Shown one piece after another: positions 8,104-34,883 of a stretch of 38,427 bases of DNA. Within the stretch, counting starts at the first letter, position 1. The number at the start of each line of letters is the position of its first letter. A program made the translations under genes and the position numbers. A model generated the notes under the pieces. It had not been told where the DNA came from. It worked only from the letters and a program-made list of their open reading frames with translations, and did not search any database. The DNA is taken from positions 1-38,427 of the IMG/VR virus record IMGVR_UViG_3300033991_000034. One strand, written 5' to 3'. This DNA is from a virus.

Positions 8104-9102
8104 TTACCAGCCCCTATTCGTTTCGTTCATCACGGCCAACACGAACATCGGATCGACCGCGCCATTCGTGACTGACAGCATCCGGCAAGTGATCGATTCG
8201 GCAAGCAAGCCGTCCTCCGACTGCTCTGCATCTTCGACCTTGCCCGTCACATCAATCGTCATCTCGCCCAGGTCGAGTGTGAATCTGCACATCATGTTGT
8301 TGGTGATCGCCGCAAGGATGTCGGTCGCCGTCGAGTCTCTGAGCAGATCGATTTTGAACGAGCCGCCGCGATTCATAAACGCAAGCATCTCGAATCCGGT
8401 TATCGGATCGTGTCCGACCTTTTCGATCTCGTAATTCGATTCGATTTCAAAGCTCCGGATCAGCACGTTCACCGGACTGGCCAGGCCTGCCGAGAAATCG
8501 AGCGTCGCTGCCTCGATGTCATTGAAATAGAGAAAGTCGGCGTCATCCGAAGGTGTCCACGTTCCGGACGGATTAGAAGTGTCAACTCCCGGTCCGACAC
8601 CGCGCAGTGTCGCCTCGTACATGACTAGTTCGTCACGCGCCGCCGACAGCTTGAAGTTGCTGCATACACAGCCGCCGACCTTGTACGACGTGCTCGCTTC
8701 CGGCATGCGCCGAATGAACGTCAGAAACTTGCCCGCGTTAGCCGTGAAATCCGGATGCGTCTCGTAATGCTCGAAGGTCTTGGTGTAGGGCGTCGACGCA
8801 CCCTCCGTCACCTTCTGGAAATGAGCATAAGCGAGCAAGTCGATGTCATTGAGATTGACCGGGCCCGCAAGGACGATTTCCCCCGATCCGCCCCGATCTG
8901 TGACGATCACGTGTTGCTGCGTCGGGTTTTTGCTGCCGTGATTCGCGGCGATCTCGTATACTTGCTGATCGCGTGAGACCTTGCACGAATCAAGCGTCAG
9001 TTCGATGAACTCGGCGTTGTCGAGTTCGACGGTAGCATAAGCGGCTTGTTCGCGAATGCCGAACCGCCGCTCCATAGATTCACGAATTTCTTCCAAGGCC
9101 AT
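8104..9102 (-). CDS. Major tail tube protein
   Basis: 332 aa, starting MALEEIRESMERRFG with an AAGGA-type ribosome site. It lies directly before the chaperone pair and after the tail terminator genes, the standard place for the tube protein. The sequence is beta-rich with repeated tube-like motifs (FIELTLDSCKVSRDQQ, then IRSFEIESNYEIEKVGHDPITG and CRFTLDLGEMTIDVTGKVED). It is longer than a minimal tube protein (about 150-250 aa), which suggests an additional surface domain. The assignment rests mainly on gene order and beta character. Confidence 0.7.
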   Translation of the reverse strand: MALEEIRESMERRFGIREQAAYATVELDNAEFIELTLDSCKVSRDQQVYEIAANHGSKNPTQQHVIVTDRGGSGEIVLAGPVNLNDIDLLAYAHFQKVTEGASTPYTKTFEHYETHPDFTANAGKFLTFIRRMPEASTSYKVGGCVCSNFKLSAARDELVMYEATLRGVGPGVDTSNPSGTWTPSDDADFLYFNDIEAATLDFSAGLASPVNVLIRSFEIESNYEIEKVGHDPITGFEMLAFMNRGGSFKIDLLRDSTATDILAAITNNMMCRFTLDLGEMTIDVTGKVEDAEQSEDGLLAESITCRMLSVTNGAVDPMFVLAVMNETNRGW

Positions 9103-9105
9103 AGC

Positions 9106-9456
9106 CTATCCTTTCTTTTTAAATCCCATAACGAGTCCTTGCCAGCCCAGGGTTACGTTACGATCCTCGTCGTGCGGCTTGTCATCGCTTCGATATTCGT
9201 CTTCGCCGTCATCGATTTCGCCGACATCTTCGGTAGTTGCAACATCACGGTCATCGACCGTCACCTGATTTGCAGGGGGTCTGCCTCCGGCTTTCAGTGC
9301 ATAGCCATTGTCGATCAGTATCTGCGCCTTGTCCTCCGGCAGCTCGATGACCTCGCCGCGTTTCAGTTGATCGATGAAGAATGGCGCAATCGTATACTGC
9401 CGCGAGAGTCGTTTCAGACCATGAGGATCAATATGCTTGCTTCTTCTGATTCGCAT
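9106..9456 (-). CDS. Small acidic phage structural-module protein
   Basis: 116 aa, one-base overlap with the upstream terminator gene. The N-terminal half holds a short helical motif (ELPEDKAQILIDNGYAL) often seen in small head-tail module proteins. The C-terminal half is highly acidic (DVGEIDDGEDEYRSDD) and ends in a basic GFKKKG. I do not recognise a specific family. Its position between terminator and tube genes suggests a role in tail completion. Confidence 0.5.
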   Translation of the reverse strand: MRIRRSKHIDPHGLKRLSRQYTIAPFFIDQLKRGEVIELPEDKAQILIDNGYALKAGGRPPANQVTVDDRDVATTEDVGEIDDGEDEYRSDDKPHDEDRNVTLGWQGLVMGFKKKG

Positions 9457-9911
9457 TATGGGTATCCCTCCACCTTATGAATGATGACTATGATTTCCGC
9501 ACCAACACTCCGGCTTTCGGCGAATTCCAGATTGATCCCTTCGCTTGCAAAGCCCATGAGCATGTATCTGTCTCCGAAGTCCATGTCCGACTTGATGACG
9601 GTGATGACCTGGTCTACAAGGTCAAGCGTCGACGCGAGTTGTTCGACGCCCCCCGAATAGCTCGTATGTACTCTGACCGATATTCTGATCTCGTGATTTT
9701 CGATGAACTGACCAGAGCCGAAGCCGGCATCCGATGTTACCGGAATGTTGCTCACCGGCTCGACGGTGATTGCATCGAGCACGAGATTGGCCACCGCATG
9801 ATATGAATAGACGTTGACCAGTGGTGAAGGCGATGGTGAAACGCCGACACCGATTTCATCCAACAGCCGATTGTAGACCTTGCTGTGGGCCGTGGCGGTC
9901 GTCGTCGACAT
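9456..9911 (-). CDS. Tail terminator/completion-like protein with a Ser-Pro insert
   Basis: 151 aa, overlapping both neighbours by one base. The sequence alternates beta strands and helices (HEIRISVRVHTSYSGGVEQLA, then STLDLVDQVITVIKSDMDF and VGAEIIVIIHKVEG), as in tail terminator proteins. The short tract SPSPSP (bases 9822-9839) is inserted near the N-terminus. Together with the next gene it occupies the place of a tail completion pair between head-tail joining and tube genes. The function is inferred from position. Confidence 0.5.
   Translation of the reverse strand: MSTTTATAHSKVYNRLLDEIGVGVSPSPSPLVNVYSYHAVANLVLDAITVEPVSNIPVTSDAGFGSGQFIENHEIRISVRVHTSYSGGVEQLASTLDLVDQVITVIKSDMDFGDRYMLMGFASEGINLEFAESRSVGAEIIVIIHKVEGYP
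9822..9839 (-). repeat. Ser-Pro tract in a tail terminator-like gene
   Basis: Three Ser-Pro units (SPSPSP) near the N-terminus. Confidence 0.65.
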
Positions 9912-10309
9912 CAGTTCGCCCCTCTGCTCGATACGTAGATGATGTCGACAACGATCCGGCTGCTTGAATATGCGTCGTCCGTTATCAAGTTGACCGGCTC
10001 TTGCCCGACGAGCTGCATTTGAAGTGCACCCGTCGGCAGTGTTGCACCCTCGATGACGTCCTTAACGTCGACAATCAAGTCCTCAATAGCCTCACCCTTG
10101 ACCATGAGGATGAGATCAACGGTCAGCCCCCAGCGCGTGTGCGTTGCGTCTCTGACCAACACCTCTTCGGTCGAGGCCAACACGCCGATATATGGTGCGG
10201 CGTCACGAGCGCCCTGGGGTGTTTTCAACCTTCGTGTACACGTCACGCTCGTAATGCCGCCGAGCATCGTGACCAGGCTGTCGATCAGCGTCTCTTTGGT
10301 GTCAGGCAC
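9911..10309 (-). CDS. Tail terminator-like protein
   Basis: 132 aa (MPDTKETLIDSLVTMLGGI) with the compact alpha/beta pattern of tail terminator proteins: an N-terminal helix, then RWGLTVDLILMVKGEA, a helix, and SSSRIVVDIIYVSSRG. It overlaps the upstream HK97 gp10-like gene by 8 bases. The role would be capping the tail tube at the neck. This is an inference from gene order and secondary-structure pattern. Confidence 0.55.
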   Translation of the reverse strand: MPDTKETLIDSLVTMLGGITSVTCTRRLKTPQGARDAAPYIGVLASTEEVLVRDATHTRWGLTVDLILMVKGEAIEDLIVDVKDVIEGATLPTGALQMQLVGQEPVNLITDDAYSSSRIVVDIIYVSSRGAN

Positions 10310-14733: not shown

Positions 14734-16512
14734 TTATCTGCATCCCTGCTCGAACAATGCAAGCCTTGAGGTTTTGACCGCATCCATAAGCAAGTCATGC
14801 GTCAACGCCTGCGCCTGCGCGTATGTAAAGAGTTGTCTCACCTCCCGCAAGAATTTTTCGAGCGGCCACTGATATTCATCCGCATCGGCCACAAGCGATT
14901 GTATGTTCAACGCTATCTGCCTGTAGTGCGCTGCAATGGTCATCGGCATGTTGTTCAATGCCGACTCCATTTCTTTGCTCGTGCGAGGATCGAAGCCGCC
15001 GTTGCCCGCAGCCTTTTCCCTCAGTCGCACCACTACGCGACCCACGATCACCCGCTTGAGCATCGGCAAGCAAGCCTGTTCCATTTGCGAGACCATATCG
15101 CGAATGTTGAAGCATGACCTAGTCACCGACTGCGGATCGATGAGCATACTCATCATGCTGCCGTTCAGCGTCTTCTCCGTCAGCTTGATAGCGACTTTCG
15201 TATACTGAGAGCGCAACACGGAATGTATCGCGCGCTCGGATTCTTCGACTTCTTCTTTCGTCGGCAGTTCTTCCGGTTCCGGCTCTTCCTCTTCAGGCTT
15301 TTCGCCCACCGGAGGCTTCTGTTCTTTCGGCAACGGCGGATAGTCGAGCTTTTCTCTGATCTCATCAGCCGTCAGCACACCCGCATCAACATAATTCTTG
15401 TACTCGATGGACTGCTTAAGCGGATCGCCCTTGAGCGCCGGGACATTCGACAGATCGAACTTGACCTGAAACTCCTCACCATAGACAGGCCAGATCATTT
15501 GCTTGTTGATCGCCGCCTCGAATACCATGAGTATTGGTATGACCGTGTTGTTCCAGAAGTCCAAGTCCTGGGCCAGTGCGTTTGCATAGTTCGAGTATTC
15601 CATAACCCCACCCCGGAATGGTGGCAGCCCGAATGCTCCGAATATCTTCTCGCGGTTGTGTCTGAGCAGTTCCCCGAATGCAATGTCCTTATGCTTGATG
15701 TCCGCTGTTTCGAGCTTACCCGCGAACTGATTGACGAACAGCTTGAATGCATTCTCGACACCACCCACATCGCTCGTTAATGCATCGAGCAATTGATTAT
15801 GCTGTTCTTCGGATAGATCATGCTCTGGCGTGAACATACCATGCAACATCGCCCCATGTTCGAAAAATTTGCTATTGAACGTGTTGACGAAATGATCCAT
15901 CATAATCTCGACGCGCACGCTGTTTATGCGGCTGATACCATAGTAGGGAGAGCTTGGAGTCAAGTCTCTGACGTGCAGCACCTGATTGAGCTTGTAGTTT
16001 TTCGACCGTGTAGTGCCCTGTCCGATAATGTAGCCGCTCGGCTCGCCCGATTCCGAAAGTGTCATCTTCACCTGGCGCGGATCGCGCGGCCAGAGTTCGA
16101 TGTTCTCGTTCGGTCCGGTCACCCTTTCGATAGTGGCAAAGGCATTGCCATCGCCCAGATAGCTCTTCACCTGATGGCGAATGAAGTCGATCCATGAGTG
16201 CGTCGGATTCGGATTCTTGATGATCCGATTCGCAGGATGGTCCTGATCCTCATATTCGCGCTCGATACCACCAATGGTCTCCATGCCTTTGATTCTGACC
16301 GGCAGGCTGGCCACAGCATCAGAGATCGCGCGCGTCGCTATGTAGACGCTGGAGTTGACCGTCTCCGCCTCGACATCGTGATAGGTGCGAGGATCGCGAC
16401 CGGCCACGCGCTGAGAGCCGTAATGTACCCAGGACTCGATACCGGCAGCACGATCTTTGAGTTTAACCGACCGCTTGCGGCCGACAGATATTTCCCAGCC
16501 GAATAGGTTCAT
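14734..16512 (-). CDS. Portal protein (HK97 family)
   Basis: 592 aa. The N-terminal 400 residues match the HK97-type portal: NSSVYIATRAISDAVASLPVR, then DFIRHQVKSYLGDGNAFATIE, WPRDPRQVKM, HVRDLTPSSPYYGISRINS and REKIFGAFGLPPF. A Pro/Glu-rich hinge (EKPEEEEPEPEELPTKEE) leads into an extra helical C-terminal domain of about 150 residues. That extension is longer than a minimal portal and could form the barrel or carry a morphogenesis function. Order terminase-portal-protease-capsid is the canonical head module. Confidence 0.9.
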   Translation of the reverse strand: MNLFGWEISVGRKRSVKLKDRAAGIESWVHYGSQRVAGRDPRTYHDVEAETVNSSVYIATRAISDAVASLPVRIKGMETIGGIEREYEDQDHPANRIIKNPNPTHSWIDFIRHQVKSYLGDGNAFATIERVTGPNENIELWPRDPRQVKMTLSESGEPSGYIIGQGTTRSKNYKLNQVLHVRDLTPSSPYYGISRINSVRVEIMMDHFVNTFNSKFFEHGAMLHGMFTPEHDLSEEQHNQLLDALTSDVGGVENAFKLFVNQFAGKLETADIKHKDIAFGELLRHNREKIFGAFGLPPFRGGVMEYSNYANALAQDLDFWNNTVIPILMVFEAAINKQMIWPVYGEEFQVKFDLSNVPALKGDPLKQSIEYKNYVDAGVLTADEIREKLDYPPLPKEQKPPVGEKPEEEEPEPEELPTKEEVEESERAIHSVLRSQYTKVAIKLTEKTLNGSMMSMLIDPQSVTRSCFNIRDMVSQMEQACLPMLKRVIVGRVVVRLREKAAGNGGFDPRTSKEMESALNNMPMTIAAHYRQIALNIQSLVADADEYQWPLEKFLREVRQLFTYAQAQALTHDLLMDAVKTSRLALFEQGCR

Positions 16513-16545
16513 TGTTATCCCTTCACAAAATGAACATTGCGATTC

Positions 16546-18312
16546 TTATCCGACATATGCGCTCCTGCGTTTCTTGACTTCCGGCTGCTCTTTGTGTCCA
16601 TCGCCGTTATCGGGATCGCCTATGCGCCCGCGTTCGATGATCGTCTGGACATCGATCAGCCCGGTTTTCATCGTGTCAATATGCGCCTCGCGCTTGACGA
16701 CCGCACTGTTCCTGAGTCCCGAAATCAACAAGGCGAGATGTCTATACGCCGAGGCATGAAAGAAATGGTCGGTGCCCTTCGTCCAGACGATATTCCCGCC
16801 TGCATCCATGATCCGTTTCGGCACTTGCATCTCGGAGAGATATGCACCGTTGACTGCCGATTGCCAGTCATGGCGGATGACGATTTGCTTGTTTCTGAAT
16901 GCGGCGACCATCGAGTCGAGCAGTTCAGTGCGGTTCGTGTTGACCACAAGGTGCTCGTAATCAAGGTCGTATGCCTTTCTGACCTGATCTTTCGACCGAT
17001 AGTAGCACATCCATGCGCCTGGTTGTCGCCTGACGAAGTTTCGGGTCTCGGCGTATCCGCCGCCCTGAGCATCGACCACCGCGGTCGCAGTGTTGTGCGT
17101 GGCGAGCAGCGCATAGACCTGCTCCCATGTATCGCATATCTCGTATGCCACATCGTAAATCATACCATCGACAACAGCGCTGATGACCACCGTGAACTTG
17201 CGTCCCTGGTCGATACCGGCTATTGTCCGGAAATTCTCACCCTGCTCGAATCGCAGCGGCTCGCGGGCGGCGCATGAGCGCATGACCGTATCTGTCAACC
17301 GCAGCTCATAGCTCTCATAAGGCTGCCCCAGATAGTTGTTGTGGAAGTTCTGAAGCAATGTTTCGTTGCCCTGCGCCTCAAGAAATCGCGGGAACAGACT
17401 ATCTATATCGCCCACGATATCCATATTGGACTTATGGACAAAGAGTCGGCTGACTCGATACCCTGAGATTTCCGAGTTGGGATTGTGCGCATGCCACCGC
17501 CCGGGACCGAGCCGGTCAAAAGCCTTACCGCATTTCAGGCAGATAGGATGTCCGTCATCGTTACGTAGCCGATAAGATGCGCCAACCTGCTTCACAAAGT
17601 GCTTGTACCAGTCGAGTATCTGCTCTTCTCCGCAATGGCAACACCGCACAAGCCACTCATTCTGCGTACTCTTCTGAAATTCTTTCGAGATACCTTTTCC
17701 ATCAGTCGTAGGATTGCCGAATTTGAATACGTGTGGAGCCTTCGAATCCGCGATACGATCTTTGGCATAGACGATGTTATCCTGATCGAGTAAGTCATAT
17801 TCATCCATGATCAATACATCGGCCGGGAACTCGAAGAAGTTTTTCCGGACATTTGCGCCAACGAATTTCCAACCGGAACTGAAGATCGATTTGTATACAT
17901 TGCTGTCCGCAATATGCACTAACTTATTAACCGCCAATGCTCTCTGATACGGTATCGAATAGTCTTTCAACCGGTCTATGCGATCCTGCACAAACGGACG
18001 CCGATGCTCGTTCGTCGGCAGAATGTAGAGGCCACGCAATCCCTGTTTCGCCAGCGTGAACATGGCGCAGATGAAATGCTCCGTCATGTGAACCTGCGAG
18101 CACTTGATGATGACCATGCGCGAATTATTGTCTTTATAGATCGCCTCGAGCCATTGCTTGTCGGCGAATGTCAGGCGTTCACCCTTGGTTGTGCGGTGAT
18201 GAGTCAGAGCCATAAAAAGTCGCGGCCATTTCGCCTCGATGATAGCCAGAGGCTGACTCATCAATTTCTGCTCTTCAGTCAGATTATAACTCTTGCGTCC
18301 AGGCGTGCCCAT
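16546..18312 (-). CDS. terL: Terminase large subunit (GpA-type)
   Basis: 588 aa from ATG at 18312 (MGTPGRKSYN), two bases after the upstream stop, with AAGG upstream. A longer open frame to 18459 would overlap the upstream small gene and is rejected. The ATPase has a degenerate Walker A (KCSQVHMTE, residues 70-78) and Walker B (DVLIMDEYD, 165-173). A zinc ribbon follows (CCHC near 224-227 and CLKC at 258-261), typical of GpA-type terminases. The RNase H-like nuclease has Asp368 (GIDQGRK) and Asp414 (VVDAQGGG). It packages DNA through the portal encoded next. Confidence 0.88.
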   Translation of the reverse strand: MGTPGRKSYNLTEEQKLMSQPLAIIEAKWPRLFMALTHHRTTKGERLTFADKQWLEAIYKDNNSRMVIIKCSQVHMTEHFICAMFTLAKQGLRGLYILPTNEHRRPFVQDRIDRLKDYSIPYQRALAVNKLVHIADSNVYKSIFSSGWKFVGANVRKNFFEFPADVLIMDEYDLLDQDNIVYAKDRIADSKAPHVFKFGNPTTDGKGISKEFQKSTQNEWLVRCCHCGEEQILDWYKHFVKQVGASYRLRNDDGHPICLKCGKAFDRLGPGRWHAHNPNSEISGYRVSRLFVHKSNMDIVGDIDSLFPRFLEAQGNETLLQNFHNNYLGQPYESYELRLTDTVMRSCAAREPLRFEQGENFRTIAGIDQGRKFTVVISAVVDGMIYDVAYEICDTWEQVYALLATHNTATAVVDAQGGGYAETRNFVRRQPGAWMCYYRSKDQVRKAYDLDYEHLVVNTNRTELLDSMVAAFRNKQIVIRHDWQSAVNGAYLSEMQVPKRIMDAGGNIVWTKGTDHFFHASAYRHLALLISGLRNSAVVKREAHIDTMKTGLIDVQTIIERGRIGDPDNGDGHKEQPEVKKRRSAYVG

Positions 18313-28290: not shown

Positions 28291-28309
28291 TTCTATCCTT
28301 TCTATCTCT

Positions 28310-28368
28310 GCGCGGTGCCCGACAGCCGATCCACCCTCTGCCCGGCCGTCGTGGGGATAGCACCGCGC
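28310..28368. other. Perfect 9-bp stem around a 41-base loop, upstream of erf
   Basis: GCGCGGTGC pairs with GCACCGCGC. On the minus strand the structure lies in the leader between the 68-aa gene and erf, and overlaps the last base of the 68-aa gene's stop. The loop is GC-rich with further pairing. It could control erf translation or stabilise the message. Confidence 0.5.
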
Positions 28369-28574: not shown

Positions 28575-28834
28575 TACTCTCCCTTCTCGCACTCAGCGAT
28601 GATTCTATTGATGGACTCGACGTACTCTGTCGTCTGCATCCTGTTGCCAGGGTGATGCGTCGCATCCAGACTCCACCAGGGGATCGCTTTTCTGAGAGTA
28701 TCCAGCAGCAGATTCCTCTGCCGGAGTAACTTGTTATTTTCGACTTCCAACTCATGGATGTCCCGGCAATAACATGAGCAGTACCCGTCAATACGGTTTT
28801 CCATCTCTGGGCAATCCGGTCGGCCGCACTTCAT
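28574..28834 (-). CDS. 86-aa Cys-rich protein with coiled coil
   Basis: ATG at 28834 (ATGA overlap) gives MKCGRPDCPEMENRIDGYCSC. Cysteines at the N-terminus (CGRPDC ... CSCYC) look zinc-binding. A coiled coil follows (HELEVENNKLLRQRNLLLDTL). No family recognised; the arrangement suits a small nucleic-acid or protein-binding factor. Confidence 0.5.
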   Translation of the reverse strand: MKCGRPDCPEMENRIDGYCSCYCRDIHELEVENNKLLRQRNLLLDTLRKAIPWWSLDATHHPGNRMQTTEYVESINRIIAECEKGE

Positions 28835-29079
28835 CTCTCGCATTCAACGACCCTCTCAATCTTCTCGACCTCGATCTTCAGCGGCTCATCATTCAGGTAG
28901 GTCACGAGGCCGGTGAGTTTCACGTCCTTTTCCAGCAATGCAAGCAACTGCCAGCGCCGCACTCCACGCGGCATGCAGACGATGGCGGAGCCCGCTTTCG
29001 ATCCGGATATGTAGATGTTGACATTGCTGATCTGAAAGAGTCGACCTTCGATTGTGGCGTTTTGTTTGTGTATCGGCAT
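28831..29079 (-). CDS. 82-aa beta-rich protein, paralogue of the 32476 gene
   Basis: GAGG site before ATG at 29079. The sequence TIEGRLFQISNVNIYISGS, then GVRRWQLLALLEKDVKLTG and VTYLNDEPLKIEVEKIE closely matches the plus-strand gene at 32476 along its whole length. The shared strand pattern suggests a small beta barrel. Function unknown. The opposite-strand paralogue carries an additional zinc-ribbon tail. Confidence 0.6.
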   Translation of the reverse strand: MPIHKQNATIEGRLFQISNVNIYISGSKAGSAIVCMPRGVRRWQLLALLEKDVKLTGLVTYLNDEPLKIEVEKIERVVECER

Positions 29080-30949: not shown

Positions 30950-31299
30950 GTTGCCCTCTCTGTTTCTGGTTACCTTGTTCATTCTGCCGTTATATATTGC
31001 AAGACTTGTGCCAGACAGCCAGAAACAGCGTAAGTGCTTGTGACGTTGCCAGTTGCATATTTAAGCGCTTGCCCAAGACGGCGAAAAGTCGGAAAAAGTA
31101 TTGGATTCGGGCTACATAGTGTTGGCAATACCCCGTATCCTTCGTCGATCCTGCGCGATCATCTCCTCGTAAGTCATTATCAATCAACATATCAGCTTTG
31201 GCCTTGTGAAGATGGCCACACAAAGAGATCAACTTCGCTTCTTGCGTTCAACCTGAGCGAGATATGTGCGAAATTCGGACATTGTGCTCAGATATTGAA
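30950..31299. other. 350-base gap with promoter and possible short leader peptides
   Basis: Holds the sigma54-type promoter. Two very short minus-strand frames are visible but unsupported: MTYEEMIAQDRRRIRGIANTM (a GAGGAG inside it) and MSEFRTYLAQVERKKRS. Longer frames are of random character. The region may be a decayed gene or a long leader following the 86-aa gene. Confidence 0.4.
30997..31014 (-). promoter_or_regulatory. Sigma54 (RpoN)-type promoter
   Basis: On the minus strand TGGCAC-AAGTC-TTGCA matches the -24/-12 consensus exactly, with GG and GC separated by ten bases. Transcription would start near 30987, about 40 bases before the 77-aa gene. Such promoters need an enhancer-binding ATPase; none is visible here, so a host activator would be required. 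Confidence 0.5.
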
Positions 31300-31560
31300 T
31301 TATCGTTTCAGCTTGTCAGGAAAGAAGCTTTCGGCGAACATGTTGACCGCATCCAGAAAGGTCTCAGGATTCTTGCTCAATGCTTTCTGCAGGTCAATGT
31401 CCTTTTCGTCATCAAGATGCGACTTCACGGTTTTGGCGAATTCGGGCTTGAGATAAACTGCACTTTCCACCTCAAATTTGAAGGCGCTCTTAGTTGAGCT
31501 AAAATGAATCTTGTTGCGCTCCAGCCACTCCATTGCTTCCTTCTCGGTCTCGAAGATCAT
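31300..31560 (-). CDS. 86-aa protein, first gene left of the divergent switch
   Basis: AGGAG eight bases before ATG at 31560, with a strong sigma70 promoter at 31598-31625. It starts MIFETEKEAMEWLERNKIHF and is charged and helical (TVKSHLDDEKDIDLQKALSK). No family recognised. Position opposite a ribbon-helix-helix-like gene suggests a regulatory or early takeover role. Confidence 0.6.
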   Translation of the reverse strand: MIFETEKEAMEWLERNKIHFSSTKSAFKFEVESAVYLKPEFAKTVKSHLDDEKDIDLQKALSKNPETFLDAVNMFAESFFPDKLKR

Positions 31561-31597
31561 AAAGTGCTCCTATTCCATCTTAGAATTCAATCGCCAC

Positions 31598-31625
31598 AAT
31601 ATACCGATTCCTGTTGATTTGTCAA
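31598..31625 (-). promoter_or_regulatory. Leftward sigma70 promoter
   Basis: TTGACA (minus strand, 31620-31625) and TATATT (31598-31603) with a 16-base spacer. Drives the 86-aa gene. The -35 is the left arm of the shared inverted repeat. Confidence 0.65.
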
Positions 31626-31639
31626 GATTTTTCTTGACA
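31620..31639. promoter_or_regulatory. Inverted-repeat operator shared by two -35 boxes
   Basis: TGTCAAGA-TTTT-TCTTGACA is a perfect 8+8 palindrome whose arms contain the -35 hexamers of both divergent promoters. A dimeric repressor bound here would close both directions. The 60-aa ribbon-helix-helix-like protein is the natural candidate. Confidence 0.6.
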
Positions 31640-31661
31640 CGTATCGAAATATCGTTATCTT
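31634..31661 (+). promoter_or_regulatory. Rightward sigma70 promoter
   Basis: TTGACA (31634-31639) and TATCTT (31656-31661) with a 16-base spacer. The predicted start lies about 18 bases before the GTG of the 60-aa gene, with AGGAGGA between. Confidence 0.6.
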
Positions 31662-31685
31662 TCGCACCAGACGATAGGAGGACTG

Positions 31686-31868
31686 GTGAGCAAAACGGCA
31701 CGTAGCATTTCGCTTGAGGATGAGGACTGGCAGGCAATTGAGACCTACGGACAGGCATTCGGGCAATCACCCTCGCAGGCGATTGCGTCTATTGTCAGAC
31801 AGCCCCAGGTATATATGGATTGGGTCGATCAACAGAAGGCAACAGCGACGGATGTTATTAGGCGATAG
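31686..31868 (+). CDS. 60-aa ribbon-helix-helix-like regulator
   Basis: GTG start with AGGAGGA seven bases upstream. The sequence SKTARSISLEDEDWQAIETY, then GQSPSQAIASIVRQP gives a short N-terminal strand and two helices, the ribbon-helix-helix pattern of Arc/CopG-type DNA-binding proteins. It is the first gene right of the inverted-repeat operator and probably autoregulates. Family assignment is by pattern only. Confidence 0.55.
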   Translation: MSKTARSISLEDEDWQAIETYGQAFGQSPSQAIASIVRQPQVYMDWVDQQKATATDVIRR

Positions 31869-32110
31869 GGATGTCACTTCCCAGGCGCGGGGTCAGGGAT
31901 GCTGGCGGTCGAGGGGCAGACCGCCGGCACAAATTCGACCGGCTATAGTCTCTGTGCGGGATGTCCGGTGTGGTGGTTTTGTAGCCCCCTTTGCTGCCGC
32001 ATCGGCTCCCGCCGTTGATTTCCCCGAAAGGGGTGGTTACCTCCTAGTTGCTGGTGGGTTAGAAGGCGGCGGGGGCCTAATCCCCGCCGCTGAAATTGGG
32101 AGAATGCAGC
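31869..32110 (+). ncRNA. Candidate structured RNA region A
   Basis: 240 GC-rich bases without a credible gene but dense in pairing. There is a GCTGGCGGTC/GACCGCCGGC hairpin (31901-31928), a CCCC-GAAA-GGGG tetraloop hairpin (32022-32033) enclosed by GTAGCC/GGTTAC (31981-32040), and a 9-bp GCGGCGGGG/CCCCGCCGC hairpin (32066-32090). The last element recurs identically at 33304-33328, and ATGTCCGGTG at 31961 recurs at 33150. Strand is assigned by the direction of flanking genes. No known RNA family recognised. Confidence 0.4.
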
Positions 32111-32284
32111 ATGAGAATTTGTTGGTCTGTAGATGAAGTAGGGGCCATGGATCGTTATCTGACAATTGATGATGGTGAGTTTGAGGGACTAACGGAACAA
32201 GAGCGCGAAACTCTGATTAACGAATACGTCCAAGAAGCCTTTGATGACAAAATCTGTTTTTACTGGAAAATAGTAGATGACTGA
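32111..32284 (+). CDS. 57-aa acidic protein
   Basis: GGGAGA eight bases before ATG (MRICWSVDEVGAMDRYLTID). An internal ATG at residue 13 is also possible. Acidic and helical (EQERETLINEYVQEAFDDK). Its last codons (YWKIVDD-stop) match the end of the 23-aa ORF at 32829, each running into the 5' arm of a repeat unit. Confidence 0.5.
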   Translation: MRICWSVDEVGAMDRYLTIDDGEFEGLTEQERETLINEYVQEAFDDKICFYWKIVDD

Positions 32285-32460
32285 TATGGCAAGCGAGAGA
32301 GCTATAGTGACGACTATGGCGGGTTTGAGATGTCTGCCAGTATCTAATTATGAGAAGGCCTCGACATCACATAATGGGAGAGACGGTGATTACAGCACGT
32401 TTTCACGTTCTCTCGGAGCAATAACGGGTGGGGAATCCCGCCTCTCGCTTGCCTTGAATG
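32277..32460 (+). ncRNA. Candidate structured RNA unit 1
   Basis: GGCAAGCGAGAG (32288-32299) is the exact complement of CTCTCGCTTGCC (32442-32453). Inside are CTATAGT/ACTATGG with a GACG loop, GAGAGA/TCTCTC, and GGTGGG-GAAT-CCCGCC (32427-32442) abutting the closing stem. A 65-aa frame (MTDMASERAIVTTMAG) overlaps it in ATGA fashion and cannot be excluded, but its only similarity to unit 2 is in the stem-forming bases. Confidence 0.45.
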
Positions 32461-32475
32461 ACGAACGGAGATAAT

Positions 32476-32799
32476 ATGATAACTCACAAAAAGAATATAA
32501 CGATTGAAGGCCGACTCTTTCAGATCAGCAGTAGAAACATTTACATTACCAAGCCTCAAGGGGGCAAAACAGGCATTCGCTGCATGCCGTATGGCGTACG
32601 GCGTTGGCAGTTGCTTAATGCAGTCGGCAAAAATGTCAGGATTACCGGTTTTGTGACCTACCTGAATTGTGAACCGGTAGAAATCGGGGTCGAGAAGATT
32701 GAAATGTCTCCCGTCGTCTTGAAGAAATGCCCTTCATGTGATCTGATGTCGATAGTCAACGATGAGTGCACTGAATGTGGAGCGAGAATCAAAGGTTAA
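32476..32799 (+). CDS. 107-aa beta-rich protein with zinc-ribbon tail
   Basis: GGAG six bases before ATG (MITHKKNITIEGRLFQISSR). The first 80 residues are a clear paralogue of the minus-strand 28831 gene (TIEGRLFQIS...NIYI, CMPYGVRRWQLL, VTYLNCEPVEI). The added tail CPSCDLMSIVNDECTEC is a zinc ribbon matching the tail of the 29788 protein. It lies between two repeat units of the folded region, so may act with those RNAs. That link is speculative. Confidence 0.6.
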   Translation: MITHKKNITIEGRLFQISSRNIYITKPQGGKTGIRCMPYGVRRWQLLNAVGKNVRITGFVTYLNCEPVEIGVEKIEMSPVVLKKCPSCDLMSIVNDECTECGARIKG

Positions 32800-32828
32800 C
32801 TGATATGGCAATCAGAGGAGTTTACAAG

Positions 32829-32900
32829 ATGACACATAATCAACATGAATGCAATGCTTATCGTGAAAAGCTGTTCTCCGAGTGGAAGATAGATGACTGA
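32829..32900 (+). CDS. 23-aa micro-ORF
   Basis: GAGGAG eight bases before ATG (MTHNQHECNAYREKLFSEWK, ending IDD). Its end matches the 57-aa ORF and runs into repeat unit 2, so it may be a shortened paralogue of that gene or a leader peptide. Confidence 0.35.
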   Translation: MTHNQHECNAYREKLFSEWKIDD

Positions 32901-33040
32901 CATGGCAAGCGAGAGCGGCATAATTCGCGGCATGCTCTTAAATTACTGGGAAGGAATAACTGACAAGATGGGGCGGCAATCCAGTAGTGCCGAAGGCCTC
33001 ACCGGTCGGTTGGAATCCGGCCTCTCGCTTGCCTTGAATT
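32893..33040 (+). ncRNA. Candidate structured RNA unit 2
   Basis: The same closing stem as unit 1: GGCAAGCGAGAG (32904-32915) with CTCTCGCTTGCC (33022-33033). The inner hairpin is GGTCGG-TTGGAAT-CCGGCC (33004-33022). Compared with unit 1, one pair changes from G-C to C-G while pairing and the GGAAT loop end are kept, a compensatory change supporting RNA structure. The bases between are otherwise diverged and of different length (106 against 142). Confidence 0.5.
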
Positions 33041-33330
33041 TGGGTGGTGGCAGACGGTATAGCTTGGGCATGGGTTCGAGTCCCAGGATATTGCGCAATA
33101 TCCCCCGGAAGTCTGCCGCCTTGAATTTCCCACTCGTCCTTAGCGGCTTATGTCCGGTGAGTGGGGTTTCGCAGCATGTCTCCGAGATTCAACCCGCAGG
33201 TCTCGGGGTCAACCGCACCGCTGAGTTTTGGAAAGTTTCGCTCAGCGGTGCGGAGAGAATTTCCTCTTTTCTTCCTCCTCTCGCTTCTCAGATGCGGACC
33301 GATGCGGCGGGGGCCTAATCCCCGCCGCTG
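33041..33330 (+). ncRNA. Candidate structured RNA region B with T-loop junction
   Basis: A run of stems. P1 is GGTGGCAGAC (33046-33055) with GTCTGCCGCC (33111-33120). Inside P1 are TGGG-TTCGAGT-CCCA (33071-33085), whose loop fits the tRNA T-loop pattern, and GGATATT-GCGC-AATATCC (33086-33103). These are followed by CCCACTC/GAGTGGG (33129-33165), CTCCGAGA/TCTCGGGG (33180-33208), a perfect 13-bp stem CCGCACCGCTGAG/CTCAGCGGTGCGG (33213-33253), and the 9-bp hairpin at 33304-33328. A 141-aa frame crosses the region but looks non-coding. Confidence 0.5.
33304..33328 (+). repeat. GC-rich 9-bp hairpin, duplicated at 32066-32090
   Basis: GCGGCGGGG-GCCTAAT-CCCCGCCGC, identical in both copies including the loop. 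Each copy ends a folded region and precedes a gene. No T-run follows, so it is not a classical terminator, but it could be a processing or stop signal. Confidence 0.6.
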
Positions 33331-33358
33331 GAAATGGTAGATGAGAGGACGATCACTA

Positions 33359-34798
33359 ATGAGAAAATGTCTCGCAGGCCCCTTCATCGGTGAATTCGGT
33401 TGGGAGCTTTTTTGTTGGCAAGGCTTTCTCCGCAAGCGCCGATCCGACTATGATTCGATGACCGTCATTTGCAGAAAAGGCCATTCGATTCTATATGCGG
33501 ATTTCGCCGATGAGGTTATCGAGATTGATATTCCCGTGGATAATGTGAACGAATGGATGAATAGAGGCTTCGATCCAAATCAGACGGTCAATTACTATAA
33601 GAGTGCCGGCGAATTTACAGATTTCATTCCGTTCAATGCATTCAAATCGTGGTGGTGGAAAAACTCATCTGCATGGAACAGGCAGATATTCAAAGCCCTT
33701 GGACAAAAACATGACACATTGAAAACTGACATTCTGATTCACGCTCGCAATGCTCATCACTATGGATCATCTTACCGCAATTGGAAACAACCTGATGCTG
33801 ATCTATATGGTCAATGGGCAAGCAGTCAAGGGTATTCGATTGCATCGATAGGATTATCACAAAGCTCGACTCACATATCTGCCGGATTAGATTATCGAGA
33901 CAAATCACTTGCGGAGTTGGCGGATATAATGGCAAGCAGTCGACTCCTGATTGGTTCGCAATCAGGGCCGACACATTATGCGGCGCTTTGTAAGTTGCCG
34001 GTGATTGCATGGCAACAATCATCCGAAAGCGCAGTCCGTGTTGAAAGGCATTGGAATCCATTCAACGTTGAGACTCGCACGAAACCGGCGGATATTGTCC
34101 TCAAGGCCAAACGCGAATCATTCACTCCGCCTCTCGAATGGATGCAGGATGCAACATTGGACATACTGAAACGATCAGAAGTTCGAGGGAATGGATTATC
34201 TCAAGATGAAATCAGACGATATTGGGATGATAGATCATCCAAACAAGACGCGTGTACTGTCGGCCCCTATGGTTCATCTTTAAGAGAGCAAGATAACATC
34301 TATCAGGAACGCTTTGCTTTTATGCAGCATCGAATGCCATTCACGTATCGGACACTCGACTTCGGCTGTGGTATAGGTCGTTGCAGTTCATTATTCGATT
34401 CGGCGAAATATCTGGGTGTCGACATCTGTTCAAATCTGATCGAACTTGCAAAAACACGGAATCCGGGTTACGAATACAAACTACTTGGCAAGCCATTGAT
34501 AGAAGATATTGATTTTGTATATGACTGTTTTTTCACGTCAACGGTCTTGCAGCACAATGACGACGCGTCTGTTGTAGCCATATTCAAATCGGTTAAGCAG
34601 TCTATCCGGGGTCGACCGCTTACTCTTTGTCTATACGAGAACACTTCGGAAAATCCCAACAAGGCACATATCTGTTTCAGGAGTGTCACGAGATATGAGG
34701 AACTGATTCGCAGTGTATTTTCCATTGAGAATTTTGACTCGTGGTCACATATTTCATATAGGGAACGGCACTCGCTTATGGTTGCGCGGGTCAAATAG
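33359..34798 (+). CDS. Glycosyltransferase-methyltransferase fusion
   Basis: 479 aa from ATG at 33359 (MRKCLAGPFIGEFGWELFCW); an ATG at 33341 lacks a ribosome site. The N-terminal domain (1 to about 265) has the GT9/heptosyltransferase-like end: SSRLLIGSQSGPTHYAALCKL, then PVIAWQQ. The C-terminal domain (about 325-479) is a class I SAM methyltransferase with TLDFGCGIGRCSSLFD and YLGVDICSNLIELAK. A methylated sugar or glycan is the likely product: modification of host surface polysaccharide, phage capsid or phage DNA. The substrate is unknown. Confidence 0.65.
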   Translation: MRKCLAGPFIGEFGWELFCWQGFLRKRRSDYDSMTVICRKGHSILYADFADEVIEIDIPVDNVNEWMNRGFDPNQTVNYYKSAGEFTDFIPFNAFKSWWWKNSSAWNRQIFKALGQKHDTLKTDILIHARNAHHYGSSYRNWKQPDADLYGQWASSQGYSIASIGLSQSSTHISAGLDYRDKSLAELADIMASSRLLIGSQSGPTHYAALCKLPVIAWQQSSESAVRVERHWNPFNVETRTKPADIVLKAKRESFTPPLEWMQDATLDILKRSEVRGNGLSQDEIRRYWDDRSSKQDACTVGPYGSSLREQDNIYQERFAFMQHRMPFTYRTLDFGCGIGRCSSLFDSAKYLGVDICSNLIELAKTRNPGYEYKLLGKPLIEDIDFVYDCFFTSTVLQHNDDASVVAIFKSVKQSIRGRPLTLCLYENTSENPNKAHICFRSVTRYEELIRSVFSIENFDSWSHISYRERHSLMVARVK

Positions 34799-34799
34799 T

Positions 34800-34883
34800 G
34801 GAAAGAACTCCAAACACTGGCAGCCGCCGCTTGAATGGATGAATGAAGCGACAGTTGAGATGCTGAAGAGGAGCACAGAATGA
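34800..34883 (+). pseudogene. Relic of the glycosyltransferase 3' end
   Basis: Directly after the fusion gene's stop, in another frame, the sequence reads QPPLEWMNEATVEMLKRSTE then stop. This matches the fusion protein's own internal segment TPPLEWMQDATLDILKRSE at the glycosyltransferase-methyltransferase boundary. It looks like the original end of a stand-alone glycosyltransferase, left behind when a copy was fused to the methyltransferase. It has no start of its own. Confidence 0.6.

Follow-up and report, generated by a model that had tools for sequence, protein, structure and literature searches.

What does the roughly 300-nt intercistronic gap at 33041-33330 of this phage contribute to the operon in which it lies, and does it do so as RNA, as DNA, or as a gene? 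The window analysed here, a linear IMG/VR virus record taken whole (38,427 bases), comes from a tailed phage, an uncultured bacterial virus. Its minus strand carries the genes for portal, terminase, capsid, DnaN, ERF, and YqaJ. Near position 31,600 there is a divergent promoter-like pair (TTGACA-16-TATATT leftward, TTGACA-16-TATCTT rightward), from which a rightward operon extends to the right end of the window; within 31200-33700, 9 promoter-like sites are present versus 2.7 expected. Within that operon, the segment is flanked on its left by a cluster of very small genes and on its right by the following gene:

33341-34798, plus strand: gene for a 485-aa protein, downstream of the segment, with its start codon ATG at 33341 or 33359.

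The C-terminal part of this protein contains a methyltransferase domain (Pfam Methyltransf_11, 22.5 bits against a cut-off of 21.2). The stretch that joins its two halves, 34127-34170, has a 77% remnant copy at 34824-34867, which may be a sign of gene fusion or shuffling. The first gene of the rightward operon, 31686-31868, specifies a 60-aa product that by eye resembles a ribbon-helix-helix DNA-binding protein, and for which a PHROGs search gave no match. Two other small proteins, encoded at 28831-29079 (minus strand, leftward operon) and 32476-32799 (plus strand, rightward operon), are paralogous, being 61% identical over the aligned part; the rightward copy bears a zinc-ribbon-like C-terminal tail. 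The leftward operon has a further intercistronic hairpin at 28300-28368 (minus strand; GCGCGGTGC ... GCACCGCGC around about 40 nt).

Insight into the segment begins with its folding. The stems within 33041-33330 are real, and their stability is non-random and unusual for this phage genome. The plus strand has a minimum free energy (MFE) of -130.1 kcal/mol compared with -108.1 (sd 5.2) for dinucleotide shuffles (z -4.2), and 0 of 200 shuffles match it; a repeat run with 60 shuffles gave z -3.7. The structured region announced in the preliminary description thus folds much better than shuffled sequence. Among 224 overlapping 290-nt plus-strand tiles, the tile 33040-33329 has the lowest z (-4.8, the next being -4.3), a rank that is approximate because only 20 shuffles were made per tile; when 200-nt tiles on an off-register grid were used instead, the region was unremarkable (best z -2.2). 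At a length of 290 nt, the plus strand of the phage therefore has few stretches that fold as stably as the segment, which is at or near the genome extreme. The minus strand folds more weakly (-112.9 kcal/mol, z -3.5).

The preliminary description had listed a 10-bp outer stem, an 18-base perfect palindrome, three further stems of which one has 13 perfect pairs, and a 9-bp hairpin that recurs about 1.2 kb upstream. All of these are present, the three further stems at ~33129-33165, ~33182-33206, and 33213-33253, and the elements of the segment and its upstream counterpart are as follows:

33046-33120, plus strand: putative tRNA-like domain (E3) of 75 nt, a 10-bp outer stem enclosing a T-arm and a capped hairpin.
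33071-33085, plus strand: T-arm-like hairpin TGGG-TTCGAGT-CCCA, recognised by sequence, with 4 Watson-Crick pairs.
33086-33103, plus strand: perfect palindrome GGATATT-GCGC-AATATCC, recognised by sequence; pair probabilities 0.76-0.99.
33129-33165, plus strand: hairpin CCCACTC...GAGTGGG, stem ~33129-33135/33159-33165, in the MFE and centroid fold.
33180-33208, plus strand: hairpin CCGAGA...TCTCGG, stem ~33182-33187/33201-33206, in the MFE and centroid fold.
33213-33225/33241-33253, plus strand: perfect 13-bp hairpin with a 15-nt loop (inverted repeat I4); pair probabilities 0.88-1.0.
33304-33341, plus strand: D2 hairpin GCGGCGGGG-GCCTAAT-CCCCGCCGC with its flank, directly 5' of the 485-aa gene.
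32066-32103, plus strand: first copy of D2, directly 5' of a 57-aa ORF.
31869-32112, plus strand: second GC-rich structured gap (z -2.4), ending in the first D2 copy.

On the 3' side, the 13-bp hairpin at 33213-33253 is followed by a pyrimidine-rich tract, and the row of hairpins ends in D2, a 38-nt repeat whose two copies (33304-33341 and 32066-32103) are 92% identical. The D2 stem, 33304-33312/33320-33328, has 9 bp and a 7-nt loop, and its second occurrence is found at 32066-32090, 1,238 nt upstream. Each D2 copy directly precedes the translation start of a different gene. Besides D2, the gap 31869-32112 and the reported region have ATGTCCGGTG and weak further similarity in common (P 0.021 excluding D2), and because of these shared features the two may be paralogous leaders. 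A terminator-like site, sought as a GC-rich stem followed by a T-run, is present on neither strand within 33041-33330.

The 5' domain is organised differently. Its outer stem, 33046-33055/33111-33120, has 10 pairs, one of them U-G, with pair probabilities of 0.93-1.0. Inside it lies the T-arm-like hairpin, which is the sole exact occurrence of GGGTTCGARTCCC in the window; the palindrome that abuts it directly would form a 7-bp acceptor-like hairpin with a GCGC cap, and just 7 nt, with no D-arm, separate this palindrome from the closing strand. The layout of 33046-33120 reads as half a tRNA in the circularly permuted order of bacterial Y RNAs, minus the D-arm, an interpretation of the T-arm and its abutting 7-bp hairpin within a stem that would go beyond the one first offered. 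The T-loop hairpin proposed at the outset holds up as a sequence with its 4 Watson-Crick pairs; as a fold, it accounts for about 5% of the plain thermodynamic ensemble: nearest-neighbour folding, a model that omits T-loop tertiary stabilisation, favours a competing G-U-rich hairpin of 8 bp by 2.1 kcal/mol. How rare the layout is was assessed with a descriptor that requires 4 or more pairs in a T-arm with a TTCRANY loop, a hairpin with 7 or more pairs no further than 2 nt away, and 8 or more pairs in the outer stem; it has 1 match in the window, at 33046-33120. It matches 0.5% of 4,000 shuffled windows, 0.1% when the outer stem must have at least 10 pairs, as in the observed lengths, and 7.4% at looser limits (6 and 6); these percentages are optimistic because the descriptor was designed post hoc, with the sequence already seen. 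(It may be added that GCCTTGAAT occurs at 33031-33039, 32451-32459, and 33118-33126, directly after the closing stems of E1 and E2, which are described below, and of the tRNA-like domain, and that these three sites are all of its exact copies in the window.)

A capped 7-bp helix placed straight after a T-arm is the product of circularly permuting a tRNA. Bacterial Y RNAs are known chiefly from cellular genomes, and few phage cases have been proposed. Members of the YrlA family bind Rsr and PNPase, and an Rsr (TROVE) gene is found in the same genome, often adjacent. The bacterial Y RNA is a circularly permuted tRNA (PMC11472068) with parts resembling the D, T, and acceptor arms (PMC8394870); Y RNAs are used by the Ro/PNPase system (PMC8394870, PMC7790460), and an Rsr-like protein with proposed Y RNAs in a Listeria phage sets a precedent for their use by phages (PMC12282133). 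In the present case, the YrlA model (RF02553) aligns end to end over 33041-33139 and scores 17.1 bits, the threshold being 69; such a score is expected by chance given 4,227 families searched over the whole window (E 0.33 in a 201-nt search with all families, 0.0146 with YrlA alone over the whole window). The alignment places the model T-arm on TGGG-TTCGAGT-CCCA and the next hairpin on the 18-base palindrome, with the middle of the model deleted. The long stem that joins the 5' and 3' ends of YrlA has its counterpart in the 10-bp outer stem, and the sequence layout of T-arm and capped acceptor-like helix is present and rare in shuffles, with the T-arm lying behind its competitor in energy. A YrlA-type D-arm is absent from 33046-33120, and no Rsr/TROVE gene (PF05731) was found in the window or in three related records, all of which are fragments. 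The segment is not assigned to YrlA, since tests for the threshold score and for the D-arm found neither.

At the curated (gathering) thresholds of Rfam the whole window has no match, GOLLD, ROOL, tRNA, and tmRNA included, and over 31500-33500 GOLLD and ROOL stay unmatched even when E up to 10 is allowed; the segment is thus free of a known family at threshold, and the missing match to GOLLD and ROOL agrees with the preliminary description. ARAGORN reported no tRNA or tmRNA, and the tmRNA model matched the T-arm alone (5.7 bits over 15 nt). Matches to FsrA, mir-2568, malK-I, and others at E 0.1-10 were dismissed as chance, and blastn with the printed part of the YrlA model consensus returned tRNA T-arms only. 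Of the idea that a large folded phage RNA with tRNA-like motifs is encoded here, the structured RNA with a tRNA-like motif is supported; a giant RNA of the GOLLD or ROOL kind is not supported, given a gap of about 300 nt that runs without a terminator into the next gene.

The phage belongs to a group for which the catalogued phages searched offer no close match. Blastn of the region against phages and plasmids gave no meaningful match, and exact-pattern scans with CTCTCGCTTGCCTTGAAT and with the D2 hairpin core gave zero. With the portal and a conserved 332-aa protein as queries, only three related phages were recovered (portals 74-77% identical), none of which covers 33041-33330; the genome collection yielded none, and queries with the 485-aa, 241-aa, and zinc-ribbon proteins found no relatives. 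In the window, the terminase gene directly neighbours the portal gene (16512-16546), but the related phages have 1-2 extra genes between the two:

G003, reverse complement, 8703-10095: extra genes between terminase and portal.
L003, 4900-5661: extra genes between terminase and portal.
L004, 1-949: extra genes between terminase and portal, among them a homolog of the methyltransferase half encoded in the window.

In L004 this homolog (62% over 202 aa) directly follows another gene and has no leader, which argues that, as far as the sequences go, the leader is not tied to the methyltransferase gene.

Two further elements lie between the two structured gaps:

32274-32475: E1, in narrower limits 32288-32453, with the same 12-bp arms as E2.
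32890-33045: E2, in narrower limits 32904-33033, with the same 12-bp arms as E1.

The arms, GGCAAGCGAGAG / CTCTCGCTTGCC, are each followed by TTGAAT, and the interiors are divergent. E1 folds strongly (z -4.7). A reading of E1 and E2 as paralogous RNAs, each closed by a 12-bp stem, was set aside, since both reading frames bridge the genes next to them and can be aligned with each other in frame (global P 0.002, local P 0.028); they may instead be small paralogous genes with structured mRNA. Promoter-like sites occupy the same place in both, at 32281-32308 (CTGATA-16-TATAGT) and 32897-32924 (CTGACA-16-CATAAT); the latter, which scores 10/12, lies upstream of the segment. The 12-mer GGCAAGCGAGAG has four copies near the segment, two per strand, and two of these lie in the spacers of the E1/E2 promoter-like sites.

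Against this background the competing explanations can be weighed. It is very improbable that 32893-33318, the 141-aa frame, represents a genuine gene, with the structure being incidental. Shuffled sequences are expected to show a frame open over 141 codons in 3.4% of cases, and the first 46 codons of the frame can be aligned in frame with E1 at the P values given above, so that upstream of 33040 the frame may be coding. However, the E1 similarity stops before 33040, the frame has neither a Pfam nor a PHROGs match, and codon usage over 33034-33318 scores -0.095 per codon, compared with a range of +0.04 to +0.22 that covers nearly all of the reference phage genes; the reported part does not look coding, which speaks against the refutation through a protein that had been foreseen. 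It is also quite unlikely, if less remote, that DNA is the functional form, with the palindromes binding repressors or replication/recombination proteins in an early control region. The perfect, loop-less 18-bp palindrome at 33086-33103 and the four nearby GGCAAGCGAGAG copies would suit such a site, but the 13-bp and D2 stems carry loops of 15 and 7 nt, and both the U-G pair in the outer stem and the better folding of the plus than of the minus strand support the RNA form. An integron attC site, the end of an insertion sequence, and a tRNA-derived attP were also weighed by eye and set aside. Since no relative of the RNA was found, we infer its function; the segment probably acts as RNA.

If so, it could be free-standing and trans-acting, as a Y RNA or some other small RNA of the phage, either cut from the operon or transcribed separately, a reading we consider unlikely. 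The promoter-like site at 32897-32924 and the proposed phage Y RNAs beside an Rsr-like gene (PMC12282133) speak for it; against it, the window and the related records, though these are incomplete, hold no TROVE/Rsr gene, and, as the segment contains no terminator-like site, transcription is more likely to run on into the 485-aa gene. There is a real possibility, short of an even chance, that the segment is an ordinary structured intercistronic leader, whose hairpins protect or process the mRNA or shape translation, the T-arm being chance and the alternative hairpin real. The energetic advantage of that hairpin, the position of D2 directly before two gene starts, the missing terminator, and the sub-threshold YrlA score all agree with this; what it leaves to coincidence is an exact-consensus tRNA T-arm, an abutting 7-bp hairpin, and a 10-bp stem that are jointly rare in shuffles. 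Our best explanation, offered tentatively, is that the rightward operon has a structured leader RNA here, which carries a minimal Y-RNA-like tRNA mimic on its 5' side and the repeated hairpin on its 3' side, just ahead of the next gene. Against it stand the single sequence, on which a plausible tRNA-mimic reading is based, the YrlA score far below threshold, the T-arm at about 5%, the absent D-arm, and the post hoc descriptor.

Under this best explanation, 33041-33330 would be a non-coding, structured plus-strand RNA in the gap before the methyltransferase gene, acting inside a presumed operon transcript. In its 5' domain, 33046-33120, the chain would pass from the outer stem into the T-arm, with the T-loop formed, then through the acceptor-like hairpin of 7 bp with its cap, and return to the stem; the tRNA-like fold might attract a tRNA-handling factor, either a tRNA-processing or -modifying enzyme or the host Ro/PNPase. 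The row of 3' hairpins, the last of them just ahead of the ribosome-binding region, could then set the stability, processing, or translation of the downstream gene. That the phage places a minimal tRNA mimic in an mRNA leader so that a host tRNA-handling factor is recruited to control or process the message is, as a whole, rather doubtful. If true, a Y RNA reduced in this way and placed in the leader of a phage mRNA would reveal what portion of the tRNA disguise suffices, and would suggest that phage genes can be controlled through the tRNA-handling machinery; if merely an ordinary leader, the segment would still be among the most strongly structured non-coding segments of the phage group.

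Compared with known systems, the segment comes closest to YrlA (Rfam RF02553; PDB 6CU1), with which it shares, in sequence layout, a stem enclosing a T-arm and, directly after it, a loop-capped acceptor-like helix; unlike YrlA, it scores 17.1 bits where the threshold is 69, lacks the D-arm, has no Rsr gene found with it, and occupies an intercistronic site in a phage operon. Like tRNA and tmRNA it has the T-arm sequence GGGTTCGAGTCCC with a helix of acceptor length, 7 bp, that would stack on the T-arm, but that helix is closed by a loop, and there are no free ends, D-arm, anticodon arm, or CCA. With GOLLD and ROOL, which occur in phages or near tRNA arrays, it shares the character of a large folded RNA segment, whereas it is much shorter than these, has no match to their Rfam models at threshold or at E up to 10, and lies beside no tRNA array.
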